28,808 nt of DNA, from IMG/VR virus record IMGVR_UViG_3300032731_000303, positions 1 through 28,808 of that record; one strand, written 5' to 3'. Under the pieces are notes generated by a model that saw nothing but the letters and a program-made list of their open reading frames with translations, searched no databases and was not told where the DNA came from. Made by a program: the position numbers and the translations under genes. Positions 858 to 28,616 of this stretch are shown in pieces. Origin of the DNA: a virus. The first letter of the stretch is position 1; the number at the start of each line of letters is the position of its first letter.

Positions 858-871
858 GTTTGCCTTCCTTT

Positions 872-903
872 CCTGAAGGTCTTCAGGTCGGGCATCTCCC
901 GAC
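872..903 (-). promoter_or_regulatory. Tandem hairpins in the helicase leader
   Basis: Two adjacent inverted repeats lie between the promoter and the helicase start. GTCGGG/CCCGAC (887-903) has a 5-base loop and CCTGAAG/CTTCAGG (872-887) has a 2-base gap. They end just before the Shine-Dalgarno AGGAAGG, so they could modulate translation or message stability. There is no U-tract, so this is not an obvious terminator. Confidence 0.45.
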
Positions 904-910
904 TCACAAT

Positions 911-976
911 TGAATTATAGCATACTTTCTGGCATTTGTCAAGCGTTTTTCACAAAGTCGCGAAAACTTTAACATT
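911..976. repeat. Promoter-region repeat, copy 1 (other copy 7471-7536)
   Basis: This 66-base segment matches 7471-7536 along its full length with scattered differences. Conserved blocks cover the -10, the -35 with the following GCGTTTT, and a farther upstream block containing the inverted repeat AAAGT-N7-ACTTT (954-970). The conserved block beyond the -35 suggests a shared operator or activator site for the two minus-strand promoters. Confidence 0.7.
914..942 (-). promoter_or_regulatory. Sigma70-type promoter for the helicase
   Basis: On the minus strand this reads TTGACA (942-937), a 17-base spacer, then TATAAT (919-914), an exact consensus match. The expected start point is near 907, giving a leader of about 50 bases to the helicase ATG. 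Confidence 0.85.
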
Positions 977-2688: not shown

Positions 2689-2907
2689 CTACTTGACTTT
2701 TCCTCCCCTCGCGTACCAGAATCCATCCCTGCTACCCAGGGCGACGATCTTGTAGTCGGGGTGTTTCTTCTGCGCGGCGTTGAGGAACCCATATTCAGTA
2801 AAATGTTCGTCCTCGGCAGAGATAACCAGCGTCCCATTCGGGTAGATGACAATGTCGAATGCTACTGCCGTTCCGCACTTTCCATCTGTCCAAAATGTGT
2901 GTTGCAT
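2689..2907 (-). CDS. Small protein, cassette family A (copy A2)
   Basis: A 72-residue protein with the family A core: a YPNGTLVISAEDEH block near the middle, then F..A...HPDY, and a C-terminal GFWYARGG. It is homologous to the genes at 3313-3540 and 7229-7453. The start at 2907 is chosen because its ATG overlaps the TAA of B1 by one base (TAATG) and follows GGAGGGG; a longer frame upstream would lie inside B1. The function is unknown. Shared motifs suggest a small compact fold with a conserved acidic A-E-D-E-H patch. Confidence 0.7.
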   Translation of the reverse strand: MQHTFWTDGKCGTAVAFDIVIYPNGTLVISAEDEHFTEYGFLNAAQKKHPDYKIVALGSRDGFWYARGGKVK

Positions 2908-3233
2908 TATCCCCTCCTCACCGGGACTCTCGCCCGGAGCTCGTTGCGCCAGTAGTACACGTCCCACAGGGTCTTGTGCTCAACCTTCCAGTTCAGGTGT
3001 TTCGCCATACTTGCCCGCCATTCATTGACGCACCTCAGACGGCTTTCTTCGCTGCGATAGGCATTGTTGAACTTATGCTTCCCTGCGGTTCCGCTGTAAG
3101 CCACGGCGCAAGCTCTGCCATCGGGCATGTCGTAGAGATAGACTACTGCGTCTATCTCAGGAGCTTGTAATTCCGTGCTCCCGTTCGGTATCCACCTGGA
3201 TGCGATTCGTTTTTCTGCTGCATTCATTCTCAT
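2907..3233 (-). CDS. Cassette family B protein, truncated copy (B1)
   Basis: A 108-residue protein whose first ~85 residues match the N-terminal domain of B2 (1997-2620). After EHK the sequences diverge completely. B1 ends in a short basic tail (about 23 residues) and lacks the WGYDQTN domain. This looks like a tandem duplication of an A-B pair in which the upstream B lost its second domain. The start ATG follows AAAGGAG, and the stop overlaps the start of A2. Confidence 0.65.
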   Translation of the reverse strand: MRMNAAEKRIASRWIPNGSTELQAPEIDAVVYLYDMPDGRACAVAYSGTAGKHKFNNAYRSEESRLRCVNEWRASMAKHLNWKVEHKTLWDVYYWRNELRARVPVRRG

Positions 3234-3312: not shown

Positions 3313-3540
3313 CTAGCAGATTTTGTTTCCTCCAGCACACCAGAACCCACTATCACGGTAGCAGTTCGTGATGTCAAAATCTGGATACTCCTTCCGCACG
3401 GCGCGGGTAAATTGTGACTTGTTCAAATGTTCGTCTTCCGCAGTGGCAAACAGATGTCCGTCATGGAATATGGTAACTGTGATCTGTACCAGTGACTCGT
3501 ACTGACCTTTCGCGGTCATCATCGTTGTTGTGCTCATCAT
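3313..3540 (-). CDS. Small protein, cassette family A (copy A1)
   Basis: A 75-residue protein with the family A pattern: FHDGHLFATAEDEHL, then F..AVRKEYPDF, and GFWCAGG near the end. Two consecutive ATGs follow GGAGGGAA and overlap the TGA of the upstream gene. The second (3537) has the better ribosome-site spacing, so the protein may be one residue shorter. Function unknown; see A2 and A3. Confidence 0.7.
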   Translation of the reverse strand: MMSTTTMMTAKGQYESLVQITVTIFHDGHLFATAEDEHLNKSQFTRAVRKEYPDFDITNCYRDSGFWCAGGNKIC

Positions 3541-4121: not shown

Positions 4122-4298
4122 TTAGAGCTTGCTCACGAATTCGCCATTCTCATCGTAGACCTCGATGAAGGAGTAGCCGGTGCCCTTGGGATCATGTATT
4201 GGGCGATAGGTCCAATCATCAGTGGCATTCATTTCTTTGGCTATTTTTTCCGCCTGTTCTTTTGTGAATAGCTTGGAGGTTGTATCTAGTTTCTTCAT
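4122..4298 (-). CDS. Small protein, 58 residues
   Basis: A short but convincing gene. Its ATG follows AAAGGAGAGAG at ideal spacing, a hammerhead-like RNA ends just before that ribosome site (4313-4361), and the protein has balanced composition (MKKLDTTSKLF..., ending ENGEFVSKL). Predicted content is one helix (about residues 12-23) and a C-terminal strand pair around GTGYSFIEVYDENGEF. No known family. The ribosome site resembles that of the gene at 5282-5539, where the other hammerhead lies. Confidence 0.65.
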   Translation of the reverse strand: MKKLDTTSKLFTKEQAEKIAKEMNATDDWTYRPIHDPKGTGYSFIEVYDENGEFVSKL

Positions 4299-4312
4299 CG
4301 CTCTCTCCTTTC

Positions 4313-4361
4313 GCGGTTTCGCTCAAAGCACCTCAGCGTCGGACTTTTACCGACGAACCGC
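4313..4361 (-). ncRNA. Hammerhead-ribozyme-like RNA (type III, core A9 to U)
   Basis: On the minus strand: stem III GCGGT/ACCGC; unpaired U at the expected cleavage position (4356); stem I CGTCGG/CCGACG closed by a seven-base loop; core CUGAGGU; stem II GCT/AGC; then GAAA. All elements are in hammerhead order and spacing. The only clear departure is U where the invariant A9 of CUGANGA is expected. The fold ends right at the Shine-Dalgarno of the 58-residue gene, the same placement as the intact ribozyme at 5556-5604. Cleavage activity is uncertain because of the A9 change. Confidence 0.6.
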
Positions 4362-4362
4362 A

Positions 4363-4441: not shown

Positions 4442-4756
4442 TCATCGTATTTCCTCTACCAGGTGGATCAGGAAATCCCGATCGGCAGCGATGAACCAGG
4501 GCGGGGTGTCGTTTGCAAGAGCAGCATCCACGAGTTCTGTCGCTGTCACGTTTTCGGCCAGATTGGCCGTGAGACGATTCGCCAACCGGTTGAGGCGCCT
4601 TACATTGTAGGGATCATCCTCGTCGGGAGAGAATCTTACGACGTCAGCATCAAGGCCGGTACAATCAGCCTCGTGCCACCTGCGGTACCAGTGTGCTGCG
4701 TTGTAGCCCTGGCACACGGCGCCGCATACGACGCAAGTGAAGTATTGGTCGGTCAT
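4442..4756 (-). CDS. Small zinc-finger-like protein with helical tail
   Basis: A 104-residue protein. The N-terminus has CVVCGAVC at residues 8-15 followed by H22, H28 and C32, consistent with a single zinc finger. The rest is predicted helical and acidic. The ATG lies after GAGGAG, which is preceded by hairpin R (4771-4791). It ends at a TGA, after which a 143-base structured non-coding stretch follows. Function not recognised. Confidence 0.65.
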   Translation of the reverse strand: MTDQYFTCVVCGAVCQGYNAAHWYRRWHEADCTGLDADVVRFSPDEDDPYNVRRLNRLANRLTANLAENVTATELVDAALANDTPPWFIAADRDFLIHLVEEIR

Positions 4757-4806: not shown

Positions 4807-5106
4807 TTAGAGGCTCATCCTATCATAGCACTCCGGGCAGCAGGTTCCGTGTGAGCTGCTCATGATCATGCCCTCGGGGACTTCGTGGCCGCAATCTGCT
4901 ATGACGTAGGTTCGGGGCGCCGGTTTCGCCTTCGGCCGTGGGTAGTAGCTGTCGATGCTCCTCTGCGCCCAGGATACTGAGCAGAACGGCCCCTCAAATG
5001 CGCCGCTCGTGTGGCGGTATCCGACACCGCTGATTCCGTAGTCGTCTGTCGCCTCGAACAATTCTATTCCGTTGTAGGTTTCCACTGTCTCGCCCCTGGC
5101 AATCAT
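4807..5106 (-). CDS. Small protein with C-terminal zinc motif
   Basis: A 99-residue protein. The first ~65 residues are predicted beta-rich. The C-terminal ~30 residues (IADCGHEVP...GTCCPECYDRMSL) form a C-x-H...C-C-x2-C zinc site common in phage hypothetical proteins. The ATG has GAGGAGAGAG immediately upstream. Function unknown. Confidence 0.7.
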   Translation of the reverse strand: MIARGETVETYNGIELFEATDDYGISGVGYRHTSGAFEGPFCSVSWAQRSIDSYYPRPKAKPAPRTYVIADCGHEVPEGMIMSSSHGTCCPECYDRMSL

Positions 5107-5281: not shown

Positions 5282-5539
5282 TCAGCTTCTCAGAATCCAA
5301 GAGCTGGGATCTGCTGGCGGCGACTTGCTGAGGCTAATCTTGCCCATGCGGCAGGTTTTGTGCTTGCGATATCCGACGAAAATCGTGGACTCGCTGTCCT
5401 CGAATGTGATGGGCTTTTTGCAGATTGTGCATGTGTCGCCTGGGCAAGCGACGTGGGTAGTGCTACCGTAGGATTCTTTCCAGTTATGGAGTGCGTCGTC
5501 ATTTTCTGTGAATTCCTGTCCGCATTTGTCGCAATTCAT
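5282..5539 (-). CDS. Small double zinc-ribbon-like protein, first gene of the operon
   Basis: An 85-residue protein with CDKC at residues 3-6, a central C-x5-C-x2-C cluster (CPGDTCTIC) and a later HKTC. This is consistent with one or two zinc sites, resembling LIM-like or treble-clef fingers. The start at 5539 is chosen because of AAAGGAGAGAG directly upstream and because the hammerhead ribozyme ends just before that site. Function unknown. Confidence 0.7.
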   Translation of the reverse strand: MNCDKCGQEFTENDDALHNWKESYGSTTHVACPGDTCTICKKPITFEDSESTIFVGYRKHKTCRMGKISLSKSPPADPSSWILRS

Positions 5540-5555
5540 CGTCTCTCTCCTTTGT

Positions 5556-5604
5556 GGGTTTCGTCGTTTTCGACTCATCAGGACGGGCTATTACCCGCCG
5601 ACCC
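5556..5604 (-). ncRNA. Type III hammerhead ribozyme in the operon leader
   Basis: Minus-strand structure: stem III GGGU/ACCC (including the A15.1-U16.1 pair); C17 at 5600; stem I GGCGGG/CCCGUC (6 bp, one G-U) with loop UAAUAG; invariant CUGAUGA (5581-5575); stem II GUCG/CGAC with loop AAAA; invariant GAAA (5562-5559). Every conserved core position of the hammerhead consensus is present. Predicted self-cleavage is between 5600 and 5599, removing about 130 bases of leader. The 3' arm of stem III lies a few bases before the Shine-Dalgarno AAAGGAG of the first gene. Stem III is short, so in-cell activity may depend on loop-loop contacts. Confidence 0.9.
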
Positions 5605-5736
5605 TCTTATCAGCTTCTGCCTTCTGGTTGTGGTGGGCCTTGTCCTCGGGTTCTCTCCCCTTGGGTGCCAGCCCCCCTGTTTCTAGTTTGGCTTCTGCTC
5701 TTTGGTTGTTAAGTCTTTCTTTTGCTTTCTGACCCC

Positions 5737-5765
5737 ATTATACCACAAAAGTAGGACATATCTTG
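5737..5765 (-). promoter_or_regulatory. Extended -10 promoter of the long minus-strand operon
   Basis: The minus strand reads TGGTATAAT (extended -10; TATAAT at 5742-5737). There is no good TTGACA 17 bases upstream (CAAGAT), fitting an extended -10 or activator-dependent promoter. The start would be near 5730, giving a leader of about 190 bases that contains the hammerhead. Confidence 0.65.
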
Positions 5766-5815: not shown

Positions 5816-6148
5816 TTAGTGGCGGTATTTGGACACGAACGGCACGAAGACCCGCCACAAGGCCAGCACTGGTTCAGTCGGTTCCAGTTCGTCGCCCAGG
5901 ATAGTGACCCGGACTTGGTACCGGCATTCTCCCTGGCAATCATCCAAATAAGTGAAGTCGCCCGTGCCCTCGAATTCCGCGACCGGTTTCCTGTTCCGCA
6001 GTAGGCGACAGGAGTCGATGACCTCGAACTCGGTCACGTGCCAGGATATGGCCACGGTGTCGCCTTGGCGGTATGCCTGCAAATCGTCGACGAATAGCCA
6101 CGATCCTGACGGGGCAAGCAGCAATAGCGCGAGCAGCATTTTCAACAT
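5816..6148 (-). CDS. Small exported beta-rich protein
   Basis: A 110-residue protein with a short hydrophobic N-terminal signal or anchor (LKMLLALLLLAPSGSWLF) followed by a domain of alternating predicted strands. It has cysteines near residues 47, 70 and 75 (DSCRLL and DDCQGECRY), suggestive of an Ig- or fibronectin-like exported domain. Its ATG overlaps the end of the BKACE gene by seven bases, so they are probably co-translated. It is the last gene of its unit; no clear terminator follows before the next promoter. Function unknown. Confidence 0.6.
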   Translation of the reverse strand: MLKMLLALLLLAPSGSWLFVDDLQAYRQGDTVAISWHVTEFEVIDSCRLLRNRKPVAEFEGTGDFTYLDDCQGECRYQVRVTILGDELEPTEPVLALWRVFVPFVSKYRH

Positions 6149-7023
6149 CTTCGGCCTCCGGTCAAAGTTGCAATATTTGCAACTTTGACCTCCTGCGGAA
6201 TGCCAAGCAGGAATCGGAGCTGGCTCGGGCGCATGACGTCCCTATTGACGGTCTCTGCCAGCTTATGGACCCGGCGCACCAGGTCGGCATTCCGGGCGAG
6301 TTTGGTCCGTCCCTGGTCGTACCAAATGTTATCTTCTAGCCCGACCCTGACCCCTCCGCCCATCGCTATCGCCACGGCGTTCATCGGAAGCTGGCTGTCC
6401 CCGACCCCGCCCATGCTCCAATACGAATCCGGCGGCAGTTCCCGGACCATCAGGCCTGTGTGCAGCAGGTCGGCTTGGGCGCACGCGACATTTCCAAGAA
6501 TGAGGTTGAAGTAATGCGGTCCCCGGATCAGTCCTTTCCTGGCGAGGTATTTGGCATAATTTATCATCCCGACGTCGAATGCCTCCAGCTCCGGCAGGAT
6601 TCCGCGTTTCTGCATCTCCGCCGCCAGCGCCTTGATCATGCCCGGTGAGTTGACGCTGGCTTCCTGATTGAAGTTCACCGACGACAAGGTGAGGCTGCCC
6701 AGGTCGGGCTTCACGCCGCCGTCCAGTTGGAGTGGTGCGGCCCGCTGGTGGAATTCGTGGAATGTACGTCCGCTCAGCGAGACGCAGATTACAAGACTCT
6801 TTGAGAACTGGCGGATGCCTGCGATGATTTGCTCGTAGAGAGCAGGCAGATAAGTGGAGCGACCATCCTCGGTTCTGGCGTGGAGGTGGACCATCGTGAT
6901 CCCGATCCCCCATGCCTCGTGGACGTCCTCGATGATCTCCTGCGGGGAGATGGGCACGTGCGGTGTCATTTCCTTTGTCGGGATCATGCCGGTCGGCGTA
7001 AAGTTGACAATCAGATCATTCAC
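6142..7023 (-). CDS. Beta-keto acid cleavage enzyme (BKACE, DUF849 / Kce family)
   Basis: A 293-residue TIM-barrel protein of full family length. Family features seen are an N-terminal NFTPTGMIPTKEMTPHVPI, the zinc-binding HLH at H46 and H48, S82 in CVSLSG, and the C-terminal block GGGVRVGLEDN with R226, E230 and D231. Characterised relatives use acetyl-CoA and a zinc ion to cleave beta-keto acids such as 3-keto-5-aminohexanoate; the substrate here is unknown. The start is a GTG overlapping the previous stop (GTGA); the nearby ATG is out of frame. A phage-encoded BKACE is unusual and could be an auxiliary metabolic gene. Confidence 0.88.
   Translation of the reverse strand: MNDLIVNFTPTGMIPTKEMTPHVPISPQEIIEDVHEAWGIGITMVHLHARTEDGRSTYLPALYEQIIAGIRQFSKSLVICVSLSGRTFHEFHQRAAPLQLDGGVKPDLGSLTLSSVNFNQEASVNSPGMIKALAAEMQKRGILPELEAFDVGMINYAKYLARKGLIRGPHYFNLILGNVACAQADLLHTGLMVRELPPDSYWSMGGVGDSQLPMNAVAIAMGGGVRVGLEDNIWYDQGRTKLARNADLVRRVHKLAETVNRDVMRPSQLRFLLGIPQEVKVANIATLTGGRRC
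6160..6190. repeat. Perfect 31-base palindrome at the BKACE 3' end
   Basis: Arms GGTCAAAGTTGCAA and TTGCAACTTTGACC (14 bp, perfect) flank TAT. It codes for the last residues of BKACE (VKVANIATLTG) and ends just before the GGAGG ribosome site of the next gene. The central 15-mer TTGCAAATATTGCAA also occurs at the 3' end of the portal gene. Confidence 0.75.
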
Positions 7024-9996: not shown

Positions 9997-10537
9997 GGTA
10001 GCCAGCACTTACTTGGCTGATAAGGTTGCTCTTCGGGCAAATCATCTTCCAGAACAGTCGCCGTTATCTGTATTGGATGCTTATGCTGGCCAGGGCATTG
10101 TTTGGAATGCCGTCAAGAAGATCAGCGGTAGGGAAATCCGGGTTCTACCTGTGGACATGGATCTCGGTACGGTTTTCGGGCTTTGGGGTGACAACTGTGT
10201 TTATTTGGAGTCACTGGATTTAGAACGGTTTGATATTATCGACCTGGATGCTTATGGAATGCCTTATGAACAATTAGCCATTTTGTTTAGGAGACATTAT
10301 TGTGGTTATGTGTTTGTGACATTTATCCAGTCGGACTATAATCCGTATGGTGGAACACCGCGAGGGTTACTGTGTGGCGTTGGCTTTACACAGAAGATGA
10401 TTGAAAAGTCACCGGTGCTTTATGGGCGTAGGGCGTATCAATATCTTCTTGAGTGGCTAGCCATTCAGGGGGTAAAGAAAGTCTGGCATCGGGGGTACAT
10501 ACGCAAACACTATTTAGGATTTGAGATGCAAGGCTAG
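9983..10537 (+). CDS. SAM-dependent methyltransferase-like protein
   Basis: A 184-residue protein. SVLDAYAGQGIVW (about residues 28-40) resembles the glycine-rich SAM-binding motif I, PVDMD (about 57-61) fits the acidic motif II, and IDLDAYGMP (about 85-93) sits where a motif IV-like loop would be. The start follows GAGGTTGACT. Its partner is probably the ParB-N protein. The base composition looks more A/T-rich than the genes before it. The substrate is unknown and a catalytic role is not proven. Its 3' end overlaps the convergent radical SAM gene by 24 bases. Confidence 0.6.
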   Translation: MGVTKVASTYLADKVALRANHLPEQSPLSVLDAYAGQGIVWNAVKKISGREIRVLPVDMDLGTVFGLWGDNCVYLESLDLERFDIIDLDAYGMPYEQLAILFRRHYCGYVFVTFIQSDYNPYGGTPRGLLCGVGFTQKMIEKSPVLYGRRAYQYLLEWLAIQGVKKVWHRGYIRKHYLGFEMQG

Positions 10538-13544: not shown

Positions 13545-13580
13545 CGGTAGTTCGTGATCCATGATATACTTGGAGACGGA

Positions 13581-16145
13581 ATGAACAAAGACGAACGGCC
13601 CACGTTGGCAGAGACGGCGGATCTGCGGGTGATGGTTGCGGAGAAGGCTGCGGAGGATCTCGCTGAACTCTCGATCCAGGAAAGGACCACGCCTCGCCCG
13701 ACCGGCGGGGCGACGACCATGTGGTTCGTGCGCAGGGCCGACGAAGGCGACATCGCGCCGTGGTGGAGCAAGCAGCGTGACTCGGATCTCCGGATTTTCT
13801 GGCGGCAGCCGGGCAACGACATCCTCCAGGGCGCGGTGTCCTCGATGGTCAAGAAATTCAAGAGCATGAACTGGGTGATCGAGGCCCCTGAGCGCGTCGC
13901 GAAACGGTGCCAGGACGTGCTGGCCAATTCCGAGTTTGAGAAGGGCTGGGGCGAACTATTGTCGCCGACGGTTGAGGATTACCTCTGCCTTTATGGGCCA
14001 TCCAAGGTATCACTTGGTGGGGATAGGCGTGGGAAGACAAAGGCGATTCGTTATATCGTGAGGGATAAAGATCCTGGCCCTGTAATCAGCTTTGACCCTG
14101 AGACGCATCGATTTACGGAGAGGGAAATTACCAGTTGGGAAAAGACGCCGTTGGGAAATCGGCGATGGTGGTGGATTTCTCTAGAGTCGTCAGGGCATGG
14201 TGGGAACAAACGTGGTGGCTTATACTTGACGGAAGATCATCCGGTTCTGACTAATAGGGGATGGTTGCCTGCCTGTGAAGTCGTGCCGGGAATGTTGGTG
14301 GCAACGGGCGATCCCTCGCCTTCATACCAACAGGAAGAGATGCTTGTCGGAACCATATTGGGGGATGGCTGTATCGGGTTCGCGGGCAAGCGATCACGGA
14401 TACGATTCACTCACTGTAAGAAGCAAAAGCCCTGGCTAGAGCAAAAAAAGTCTGCTTTGGCTGAATTCGGTTGGACGCCCATTCAGAGAAATATATCCGA
14501 TGAAGGGCATGAAACGTTATCAGCCAATTCCCATGTATCGGCGGCCTTGAATGGATTACGGGAAACTTTTTATCCCAAGGGGAAAAAGGTAGTTCCAAAG
14601 GGTGTAATAGCAGAATATTTCGGACCGCGCATGATGGCAACTTGGTATTGTGATGATGGGTCGATACATCATCCGAAGACGAAGGCGGGTGTTCCGACAA
14701 GGCAAACGGCGTCGCTATGTACCCATGGGTTCACCAAGATGGATACGGAATGGCTGTGCGGATTCTTGACGGCGAAGGGATTTCCGTGTCGGGTGCAGAA
14801 GGTCAATGGAAAAAAGAAGGCATACCATTATCTCCGCTTCAATGTCGATGGGGCAGAGGCGCTGTTCAAATATATCGCGCCGTTTGTACCGCCGTTCATG
14901 CGATATAAGCTACCAAGCGATTCACCAGAGTTTGAGCCTGAATTGTGGGATTTGGGCATCGCTCATCCACATTTATCAGCAGTGGTTGAGAGCAGGGAAA
15001 GGGACCCGGCGGCCAAATACGGTGGATGCAAAACCACTTACCATATCGGTGTGGATGGGACCCGCAATTTTATAGCAGCGGGAATGGTGGTACACAATAC
15101 TCAGGATCAAGGCGCTCACATCGAGGTGCTTGGCAAGGGTGATCCCCTTGGTCCCATTGAGGGTCCCGTTCTCGGGCTGGCGCACATGGACGCTGGCCGG
15201 TGTACGTTGACCGGCGACTTGACCTACCCTGTCCTGTTTTCCAACACCAAGACGGGCAAACCGCACAGGATGCATGCGTCCAGGGTGATCCATTTGGTCG
15301 ACATGCCGTCGCCGAACGAGGCGATGAATGGAATTGGATTTTCCAGCGTCAGTCGTGTGATCGCATCCTCCCAGGTGCTCCTGAAGCTGGCGCGGTACAA
15401 GAATGAAAAGCTGTCTGATTTGCCAGAGGCGGGATTGCTGATCCTGAACAATATTGTGCCGACCCAGTGGGAGGACGCCAGGGCGCAGCACCAGAAAGAG
15501 AAACGGCGTTTGGGCCACGAGATATGGTCCAACGTAATGACCCTGTTTTCCGTGGACCCAGCGCAGGCAGCGTCCGCTGAACTGGTCAGCTTCGCGAACC
15601 TGCCAGACGCGTTCGACGAGCGGAGCACGACGGAGACGTACATCAACATCGTTGCGCTGGCGTTTGGGGTAGACGTGCGTGAGTTCTGGCCCATGTCAGC
15701 GGGCCCCCTCGGCACGGCGCAGGAGACGCAGATCCAGCACCAGAAGGCGAAGGGGAAGGGCATCGGGGACTTGATCACCGCTATCGAGCGGGCGATCAAT
15801 TGGAAGGTCTTGCCCGAGAGCGCCACGTTCCGGTTTGACTTCACTGACGACGAGGAGGACCTGTCGAAGGCCCAGATAGACGATGCGCGCACCCAGACCA
15901 TCATGTCCATGTGGAAGCCAGACCCCACGACCGGAAGTCCCGTCACCCAGGCCGAGATCAGGCAGATGCTCGCTGACAATGTGACGTACTTCCCAGAGGA
16001 GTTCCTGGACACCGACGTCACCGACGAGGAGCAGGCGACGGACATTGACCAGAAGATGCTGGCGGAGTACGGGCCGATTGTGGAGATATGCGCCAAGGGG
16101 AAAGTCAGGAAACTTGCAAATATTGCAAACTTGGAAGGGCCATGA
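13581..16145 (+). CDS. Portal protein interrupted by an intein
   Basis: An 854-codon frame encoding a portal protein of about 483 residues split by a 371-residue intein. The exteins join as ...VEDYL and TQDQGAHIEV..., a typical portal segment. The C-terminal part has LAFGVDVREFWP and a helix-rich tail. The portal forms the dodecameric ring through which DNA is packaged and to which the tail joins. The start at 13581 follows GGAGACGGA. The end carries the sequence shared with the BKACE palindrome, and the stop overlaps the next start (ATGA). Confidence 0.88.
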   Translation: MNKDERPTLAETADLRVMVAEKAAEDLAELSIQERTTPRPTGGATTMWFVRRADEGDIAPWWSKQRDSDLRIFWRQPGNDILQGAVSSMVKKFKSMNWVIEAPERVAKRCQDVLANSEFEKGWGELLSPTVEDYLCLYGPSKVSLGGDRRGKTKAIRYIVRDKDPGPVISFDPETHRFTEREITSWEKTPLGNRRWWWISLESSGHGGNKRGGLYLTEDHPVLTNRGWLPACEVVPGMLVATGDPSPSYQQEEMLVGTILGDGCIGFAGKRSRIRFTHCKKQKPWLEQKKSALAEFGWTPIQRNISDEGHETLSANSHVSAALNGLRETFYPKGKKVVPKGVIAEYFGPRMMATWYCDDGSIHHPKTKAGVPTRQTASLCTHGFTKMDTEWLCGFLTAKGFPCRVQKVNGKKKAYHYLRFNVDGAEALFKYIAPFVPPFMRYKLPSDSPEFEPELWDLGIAHPHLSAVVESRERDPAAKYGGCKTTYHIGVDGTRNFIAAGMVVHNTQDQGAHIEVLGKGDPLGPIEGPVLGLAHMDAGRCTLTGDLTYPVLFSNTKTGKPHRMHASRVIHLVDMPSPNEAMNGIGFSSVSRVIASSQVLLKLARYKNEKLSDLPEAGLLILNNIVPTQWEDARAQHQKEKRRLGHEIWSNVMTLFSVDPAQAASAELVSFANLPDAFDERSTTETYINIVALAFGVDVREFWPMSAGPLGTAQETQIQHQKAKGKGIGDLITAIERAINWKVLPESATFRFDFTDDEEDLSKAQIDDARTQTIMSMWKPDPTTGSPVTQAEIRQMLADNVTYFPEEFLDTDVTDEEQATDIDQKMLAEYGPIVEICAKGKVRKLANIANLEGP
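13986..15098 (+). mobile_element. Intein with LAGLIDADG endonuclease in the portal gene
   Basis: Intein residues 1-371 run from Cys (codon 13986) to Asn (codon 15096). Block A is CLYGPSKVSLG, block B is TEDHPVLT (residues 82-89), and the two LAGLIDADG motifs are LVGTILGDG (120-128) and MATWYCDDG (about 217-225). Block F/G is YHIGVDGTRNFIAAG then MVVHN, with terminal HN and a following Thr as the +1 nucleophile. All splicing residues are present, so it should splice. Its DNA looks more A/T-rich than the flanking exteins, consistent with transfer. Confidence 0.92.
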
Positions 16146-27507: not shown

Positions 27508-28616
27508 AAGAACATGTGTTTATCTACGAGCTTATAGACCCTCGGAGTTTGGAACCGCGCTATGTCGGCAAAGCAGCAGATCCTACGGTGCGTCTAAGGG
27601 AACACTGTCGTGATGCTCGCAACGGCAAGCATTATAAACGTTCGGCCTGGATAAGGGAATTGTTTGAACTTGGCAATATGCCTATTTGCAGAACGGTCAT
27701 GAAAGTTCCCGGTGACAGGTGGGTCAAGTTTGAAAGGAAATTGATTGCTGGTTATCGCGCAGCAGGAATAGAATTGCTTAATGAACATAAAGGTGGTCAA
27801 GGAGCAGAAAAGATAAAGCCAGAGACAAGAGCGAAATTATCCAAAGCAGCTAAAGAGCGTTGGGCCAATCCTGAATGGCGGGAAAAGATGCTTGCGGCAT
27901 TGAAGGTTGGAAGGTCAGCGCCAGAAGTCAGAAAGCGACTATCTAAGAATGCAACGGAAAGAAATTTGCGTCCAGCTTTCCGGGAGGCATCAAGACAACG
28001 ATTAGTTGAGCGTTGGGAGAACGAAGACTATCGAGAGCAAATGACTCAGGCGGCCCACGACAGGGCTGATGATCCAGAATGGTGTGCTAAATGCTCACAA
28101 TCAGCAACGTTATCGTGGACGGCACAAAGGAGAGAGGCGCAATCCAAGCGGTCACGTGAAATGTGGTCAGATGACAAGCATAGAGAATATATGTCTGAAG
28201 TTCTCAAGTCTAAGTGGAAGGAACCAGGATATCGAGAACAACGAAGCGAGCAACGTAGAATTTGGTGGGAAGATACTGCAAACCGAAATACTGCTATTGA
28301 TGCTATGACTGAGCAAAGACAATCAGAAGAATACAGGGAAATGCAGAGTGAACGATGCAAGGCCAGGTGGCAAGATCCAGAATATCATCAGCACATGGTT
28401 GATGTTATGCTGGAACAATGGCAGGACCCAGAGATGAGAGAATTACGTCTCGGACCATTACAGGAGTGCTGGGCCGATCCCGAGTTTCGAGAACGACAGA
28501 GAGAAGCTGTAAAAGCATGTTGGGAAGACCCAGAATTTCGGAAACGCCAGAGGGACGGAACGATAGCCTATCAAGATAGAAAAAGAGAGGCGAAGAAGAA
28601 GGATGCTCAAGAATAG
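27504..28616 (+). CDS. GIY-YIG homing endonuclease with NUMOD-like repeats
   Basis: A 370-residue protein. The N-terminal nuclease (about residues 5-95) has YELIDP in the GIY position, RYVGKA in the YIG position, R30 (RLREH) and a later E in the glycine-rich end. Residues ~105-355 contain about ten degenerate repeats of the type W-x-(D/N/E)-P-E-(Y/F/W)-R, resembling NUMOD3 DNA-binding modules. It starts at the glycosyltransferase stop (ATGA overlap). Its DNA is A/T-rich compared with the phage. Confidence 0.85.
   Translation: MKEHVFIYELIDPRSLEPRYVGKAADPTVRLREHCRDARNGKHYKRSAWIRELFELGNMPICRTVMKVPGDRWVKFERKLIAGYRAAGIELLNEHKGGQGAEKIKPETRAKLSKAAKERWANPEWREKMLAALKVGRSAPEVRKRLSKNATERNLRPAFREASRQRLVERWENEDYREQMTQAAHDRADDPEWCAKCSQSATLSWTAQRREAQSKRSREMWSDDKHREYMSEVLKSKWKEPGYREQRSEQRRIWWEDTANRNTAIDAMTEQRQSEEYREMQSERCKARWQDPEYHQHMVDVMLEQWQDPEMRELRLGPLQECWADPEFRERQREAVKACWEDPEFRKRQRDGTIAYQDRKREAKKKDAQE

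Follow-up and report, generated by a model that had tools for sequence, protein, structure and literature searches.

The closest described systems are published phage hammerheads, above all that of halovirus HF2 (PMC3088659). In HF1 and HF2, 11 to 13 nt separate the ribozyme (HHphage) from the first reading frame of the early, polycistronic transcript, a transcript 5′ end has been mapped no more than 3 nt from where the ribozyme cleaves, and the ribozyme is thought to set the 5′ end of the mRNA (PMC3088659). The HF2 record places it at 10292 to 10359 and the helicase ATG at 10371. The element analyzed here, HHR1, likewise immediately precedes the first start codon of a polycistronic message; however, the HF2 ribozyme is annotated as type II, has core insertions, and belongs to a virus with a halophilic archaeal host, whereas HHR1 belongs to type III and has the consensus core sequence. 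The HF2 record (L227) also carries an annotated tRNA splicing ligase at 37516 to 38880. RtcB-type ligases join 2′,3′-cyclic phosphate and 5′-OH ends, which are the ends that ribozyme cleavage produces. In Clostridium scindens, Azorhizobium, and the Agrobacterium ardA locus, hammerheads lie between phage operon genes, with more than one per operon, as they do here (PMC3088659); in contrast to these clustered prophage copies, only one of the two copies in the present operon matches the consensus, the other having a substituted core residue. Among consensus hammerheads tested previously, 14 of 18 were active, and the hammerhead triple of an A. tumefaciens prophage was active in E. coli (PMC3088659). 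The glmS ribozyme resembles HHR1, whose cleavage is predicted, as a self-cleaving 5′ leader element that leaves a 5′-OH mRNA, but it has an unrelated fold, depends on a ligand, and is longer. A 2017 review linked prokaryotic hammerheads to phages and regarded their role as unsettled (PMC6155905); in phages, this is a question that HHR1 could help to test.

The DNA analyzed (the window) is a 28,808-base virus record from IMG/VR. This record, genes for ParB-like, DUF3560, and homing endonuclease proteins, and a weak portal match together point to viral origin, and we take the source to be a virus of bacteria or archaea. Recognizable genes encode a UvrD-type helicase and DUF3560, ParB-like, LAGLIDADG, GIY-YIG, and BKACE proteins. 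On the minus strand, a promoter, HHR1, a ribosome site, and the first start codon of a small-protein operon all fall within 210 bases, making a clean test case in which one core mutation in HHR1 would separate processing from sequence. The features of the operon are as follows.

5737 to 5745, minus strand: extended −10 promoter box TGGTATAAT, implying a transcription start near 5730
5600 to 5730, minus strand: A/G-rich leader 5′ of the cleavage site, about 131 nt, from the sequence; predicted to carry a 2′,3′-cyclic phosphate on release
5556 to 5604, minus strand: HHR1, canonical type III hammerhead ribozyme (RF00008, model R1, shuffles, fold)
5582 to 5599, minus strand: stem-loop I, which would be the 5′-end hairpin of the downstream mRNA once cleaved (fold of the predicted product)
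5543 to 5553, minus strand: ribosome-binding site AAAGGAGAGAG, with exact copies at 4311 to 4301 (minus) and 28126 to 28136 (plus); 0.01 expected in the window
5282 to 5539, minus strand: operon ORF 1, 85 aa, with two CxxC motifs (CDKC and CTIC), a putative zinc-binding small protein of no family
4807 to 5106, minus strand: operon ORF 2, 99 aa, of no family
4442 to 4756, minus strand: operon ORF 3, 104 aa, of no family
4312 to 4362, minus strand: HHR2, variant or degenerate hammerhead-like element (model R1, descriptor, shuffles), which would cleave between 4356 and 4355
4301 to 4311, minus strand: ribosome-binding site AAAGGAGAGAG directly 3′ of HHR2
4122 to 4298, minus strand: 58-aa ORF directly 3′ of HHR2

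By sequence, HHR1 has all the parts of a type III hammerhead. Its minus-strand sequence, running from 5604 down to 5556, consists of GGGU and C, followed after the predicted cleavage point by GGCGGGU, AAUA, GCCCGUC, CUGAUGA, GUCG, AAAA, CGAC, GAA, and ACCC. Stem III (GGGU/ACCC) has 4 bp including U16.1-A15.1, stem I (GGCGGG/CCCGUC) has 6 bp and a terminal U.G pair, and stem II (GUCG/CGAC) has 4 bp. No base of the core (CUGAUGA and GAAA) deviates from the consensus; inspection of the sequence and a descriptor scan both found C3U4G5A6N7G8A9, G12A13A14, A15.1-U16.1, and H17. When the isolated element was folded, the minimum-energy structure was exactly the hammerhead, with stems I and II closed by loops and stem III open around the core (−19.3 kcal/mol; 8 of 200 shuffles as good). 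The earlier note had named a covariance-model search as a check on its call. In an Rfam search of the whole window with 4,227 families, RF00008 (Hammerhead_3), whose open stem III, core bases, and stem order HHR1 shares, matched at HHR1 (41.0 bits; E = 7.9 × 10−6) and was the sole match with E ≤ 1, although its score lies below the gathering score of 48.5, as do those of most phage type III copies scored. Model R1, built from 38 viral type III hammerheads including HHR1 but not HHR2, gave HHR1 62.4 bits, a score to which HHR1 contributes as one of the training sequences. When the window was shuffled 4,942 times (first order), just one perfect-core hammerhead, counting all types, reached a stem score of 15 or more. 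A descriptor scan of the whole window (types I, II, and III; up to one core mismatch) returned two elements only, HHR1 and HHR2; the compact version of the descriptor was used because a loose one, with loops of up to 60 nt, gives many chance matches. Sequence, RF00008, fold, and shuffles thus confirm the coordinates and stem lengths with which the earlier note had described an intact type III ribozyme, and C17 falls at 5600, matching the cleavage position of 5600/5599 that it had predicted. We consider it very likely that a transcript bearing HHR1 would cleave itself there. In common with other IMG/VR phage type III hammerheads (e.g., L054, L103, and L107), HHR1 is intergenic and has a 4-bp stem II, an A-rich tetraloop, and a stem I in the range of 6 to 7 bp. 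Compared with these copies, its loop II (AAAA) is typical and its loop I (UAAUAG) atypical; fast, tertiary-assisted cleavage should not be assumed, since loop I departs from the common UGNGUG.

HHR1 is flanked by a promoter box on its 5′ side and by the ribosome site of the first operon ORF on its 3′ side. The extended −10 box at 5745 to 5737 has no good −35 hexamer. Exact copies of TGNTATAAT number four in the window, compared to 0.22 expected (0 of 100 shuffles reached four), and three of the four, all minus-strand, precede genes. A start near 5730 agrees with the removal of about 130 bases that had been proposed from the sequence. Downstream, the 3′ edge of HHR1 (5556) is 16 nt before the ATG of the 85-aa ORF (5539), with AAAGGAGAGAG at 5553 to 5543 and its Shine-Dalgarno GGAG at 5550 to 5547. 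The predicted 3′ product (5599 to 5540) folds with a 7-bp hairpin from nucleotide 1 and leaves the Shine-Dalgarno sequence largely free. The part of the earlier reading that placed an intact type III hammerhead in the operon leader, just upstream of the first ribosome site, therefore holds on the sequence, the covariance models, and the shuffles. Further small minus-strand ORFs with ribosome sites come after the 85-aa ORF.

One of these ORFs, of 58 aa, is preceded by the second element. HHR2, previously unreported and missed by both the earlier note and Rfam (no match at E ≤ 1), lies in the same operon, 1.24 kb downstream of HHR1 and 13 nt before the ORF. On the minus strand it reads UGCGGUU, then, after the would-be cleavage point, CGUCGG, UAAAAGU, CCGACG, CUGAGGU, GCU, UUG, AGC, GAA, and ACCGCG. 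Stems III (UGCGGU/ACCGCG), I (CGUCGG/CCGACG), and II (GCU/AGC) have 6, 6, and 3 bp, H17 is U, and GAAA is kept. In the core (CUGAGGU), A9 is changed to U, while every other invariant base is present. Model R1 ranked HHR2 second after HHR1 (26.1 bits; E = 9.2 × 10−6), taking stem II as a local gap, and the next match in the window had an E value of 1.1. Across the 4,942 shuffled windows, 15 elements, whatever their type, combined a stem score of 13 or more with no more than one core mismatch. Among the matches listed, HHR2 was the sole one-mismatch element that the compact descriptor found in 1.22 Mb of hammerhead-bearing viral DNA. The isolated element prefers another fold (minimum free energy of −18.4 compared to −15.7 kcal/mol for the hammerhead, tertiary contacts being left out of the calculation). 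A pattern scan for relatives with the A9-to-U core gave nine contigs, none with hammerhead stems, and a search of a literature collection turned up no paper with an A9U hammerhead. Hammerheads generally lose much of their activity when the core is altered, although certain natural core variants are functional (PMC3088659). With U at position 9, HHR2 is counted here as hammerhead-like only, and it may be a weak, decayed, or dead hammerhead. A 21-nt repeat at HHR2, spanning CGAAACC..AAAGGAGAGAG, is 86% identical to its counterpart after HHR1. The 58-aa ORF and the 85-aa first ORF have no similarity by eye; since the downstream proteins look unrelated, any copied cassette would consist of ribozyme and ribosome site.

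To place HHR1 among other viral hammerheads, we surveyed viral contigs with a pattern of core plus stem II (at least 120 stretches) and added loci from a narrower pattern; both patterns restrict stem II. The survey yielded at least 190 type I and at least 41 type III hammerheads in about 130 viral loci. Among the matches listed, 86% of type I and 65% of type III copies were intergenic, compared to 24% and 19% of random places, and both flanking ORFs were on the ribozyme strand for 64% and 50%, compared to 9% and 7%; at the same places, both flanking ORFs were on the opposite strand in 0 to 1%. These figures are approximate because ORFs were called by a simple script. In many of the type I copies listed, the stop codon that ends the upstream ORF lies within the ribozyme or immediately before it, and up to ten hammerheads were listed per locus. 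Intergenic placement on the gene strand fits RNA processing at gene junctions for both types. Hammerheads at phage gene junctions are thus common, and HHR1 adds another example to a known kind; what the survey adds is their coding-strand, gene-junction placement in many viral contigs. Covariation in the viral alignment was strong but was set aside as evidence, the sequences having been picked for paired stems. When Rfam was run on five phage loci, six of seven RF00008 matches fell under the gathering cutoff of 48.5 bits, so that the cutoff hides most of the type III phage copies checked and leads to under-annotation. Matches were scored in L103, L054, L005, and L121, the last being type I by the descriptor. 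Six contigs (L121:1340-6900, L005, L009, L013, L058, and L122) carry 5 to 10 hammerheads each, mostly type I, between consecutive genes, often with the upstream stop codon inside or beside the ribozyme. In two further contigs (L044:1538-1898, minus strand, and L081:5998-6046), type III hammerheads end right at an ATG and contain AAGGA or AAGG within stem II; these motifs resemble Shine-Dalgarno sequences, and folding and translation initiation may therefore compete.

After cleavage of a type III hammerhead, stems I and II stay with the downstream product. Because the catalytic hairpins are retained there, the element probably serves to provide mRNA of one uniform kind, structured at its 5′ end. 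We hold with moderate confidence that the operon mRNA owes its 5′ end to HHR1 cleavage; the fuller reading, that this end is uniform, structured, decay resistant, and translatable, is the one we favor as probable, if well short of assured. Cleavage between 5600 and 5599 would trim some 130 nt of leader and convert transcripts from the local promoter, together with any read-through from upstream genes, into one species beginning HO-GGCGGG..., in which stem I would form a 5′-terminal hairpin about 50 nt ahead of an unobstructed Shine-Dalgarno sequence. Carrying neither triphosphate nor monophosphate, such an end may resist 5′-end-dependent decay and remain open to translation. HHR2 would then be either a decayed copy or a weak second processing site that separates genes one to three from those downstream. 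Counted against this reading are the atypical loop I and the partial formation of stem III when the leader is present: in the predicted ensemble, stem III of HHR1 formed at 0.33 with the full leader and at 0.84 to 0.87 without it. Also weighing against stabilization, by analogy with glmS and RNase J1, is that 5′-OH ends can be attacked. In B. subtilis, the 5′-OH RNA that glmS self-cleavage leaves is degraded by RNase J1 (PMC3328962, PMC11780869), and HHR1 might likewise act as a destabilizer, yielding a 5′-OH mRNA that is removed by a 5′-3′ exonuclease (e.g., RNase J) and limiting operon expression. However, the product here is predicted to start with a hairpin at nucleotide 1, and constitutive loss of a virus's own message is hard to favor without a ligand, so we regard this role as unlikely.

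The main task of HHR1 could instead be the cutting of long read-through transcripts at the borders of operons or gene blocks, with HHR2 as a second cut that gives three-gene and downstream messages and with a minor role for the local promoter. Clustered prophage hammerheads flank genes or short blocks (PMC3088659), many of the viral loci listed have 2 to 10 intergenic copies, HHR2 lies in the same operon, and no terminator was found between 5816 and 5745; nevertheless, HHR2 has its A9-to-U change and, on its own, reaches minimum energy in a fold other than the hammerhead, and we think this role improbable too. A graded variant, in which fast, consensus HHR1 and slow HHR2 form two processing sites and ribozyme rate tunes the ratio of three-gene to full message, is a more speculative idea to which we give little weight. 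We give much less to regulation by the leader, in which the 130 nt would pair with or uncover HHR1 and make cleavage responsive to a signal. Some truncated leaders (from 5680 or 5660) are predicted to favor pairings that break stem I or III, but leader plus ribozyme are no more structured than shuffles (z = −0.98), and Rfam gave no riboswitch match. Moreover, shuffled leaders lowered stem III formation to a mean of 0.11, further than did the native leader; because they disturb HHR1 more, nothing points to an antagonist built into the leader. Finally, the motif is simple and its RF00008 score is under the gathering cutoff, as might be expected if HHR1 were a chance resemblance or an inactive relic. 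Against this stand the single comparable event among the shuffled windows, the position of HHR1 directly before a ribosome site, the second element in the same operon, and the fact that genuine-looking phage copies score below the cutoff too; we consider such an origin highly improbable.

Searches for relatives of the virus gave few matches. There was no match by DNA in phages, and a 447-aa protein had no tblastn match in phages or viral contigs. The DUF3560 protein had distant matches only and no relative among viral contigs. One contig (L002), found via the first ORF of the operon as a candidate relative, shared 12 residues only and had no hammerhead, and it was dismissed as a chance match. 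Upstream of the operon, an intact-looking gene for a BKACE (beta-keto acid cleavage enzyme) protein lies at 6142 to 7023 on the minus strand; its best genome matches are about 70% identical, several of them in Dehalococcoidia. Following up the idea of a Dehalococcoidia host that this gene suggested, one late-region protein was compared to 294 genomes and gave one weak match. An 863-aa protein (13554 to 16145, plus strand) has a LAGLIDADG domain, a weak intein C-terminal signal, and then a weak portal match, and it is probably an intein in a portal-like protein. The UvrD-type helicase gene has a leader at 860 to 945 (minus strand) with a consensus promoter (TTGACA-17-TATAAT), hairpins GUCGGG..CCCGAC and CCUGAAG..CUUCAGG, and then a ribosome site. 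Positions 909 to 860 had been matched by model R1 (E = 1.8) but lack GAAA and were rejected as a hammerhead, being this hairpin leader. Related hairpin sequences (GAAACCUGGGAUGG..) occur at 3313 to 3234 and 2700 to 2627 on the minus strand, before paralogous genes at 2907 to 3233 and 1997 to 2626, representing a duplicated gene plus leader.
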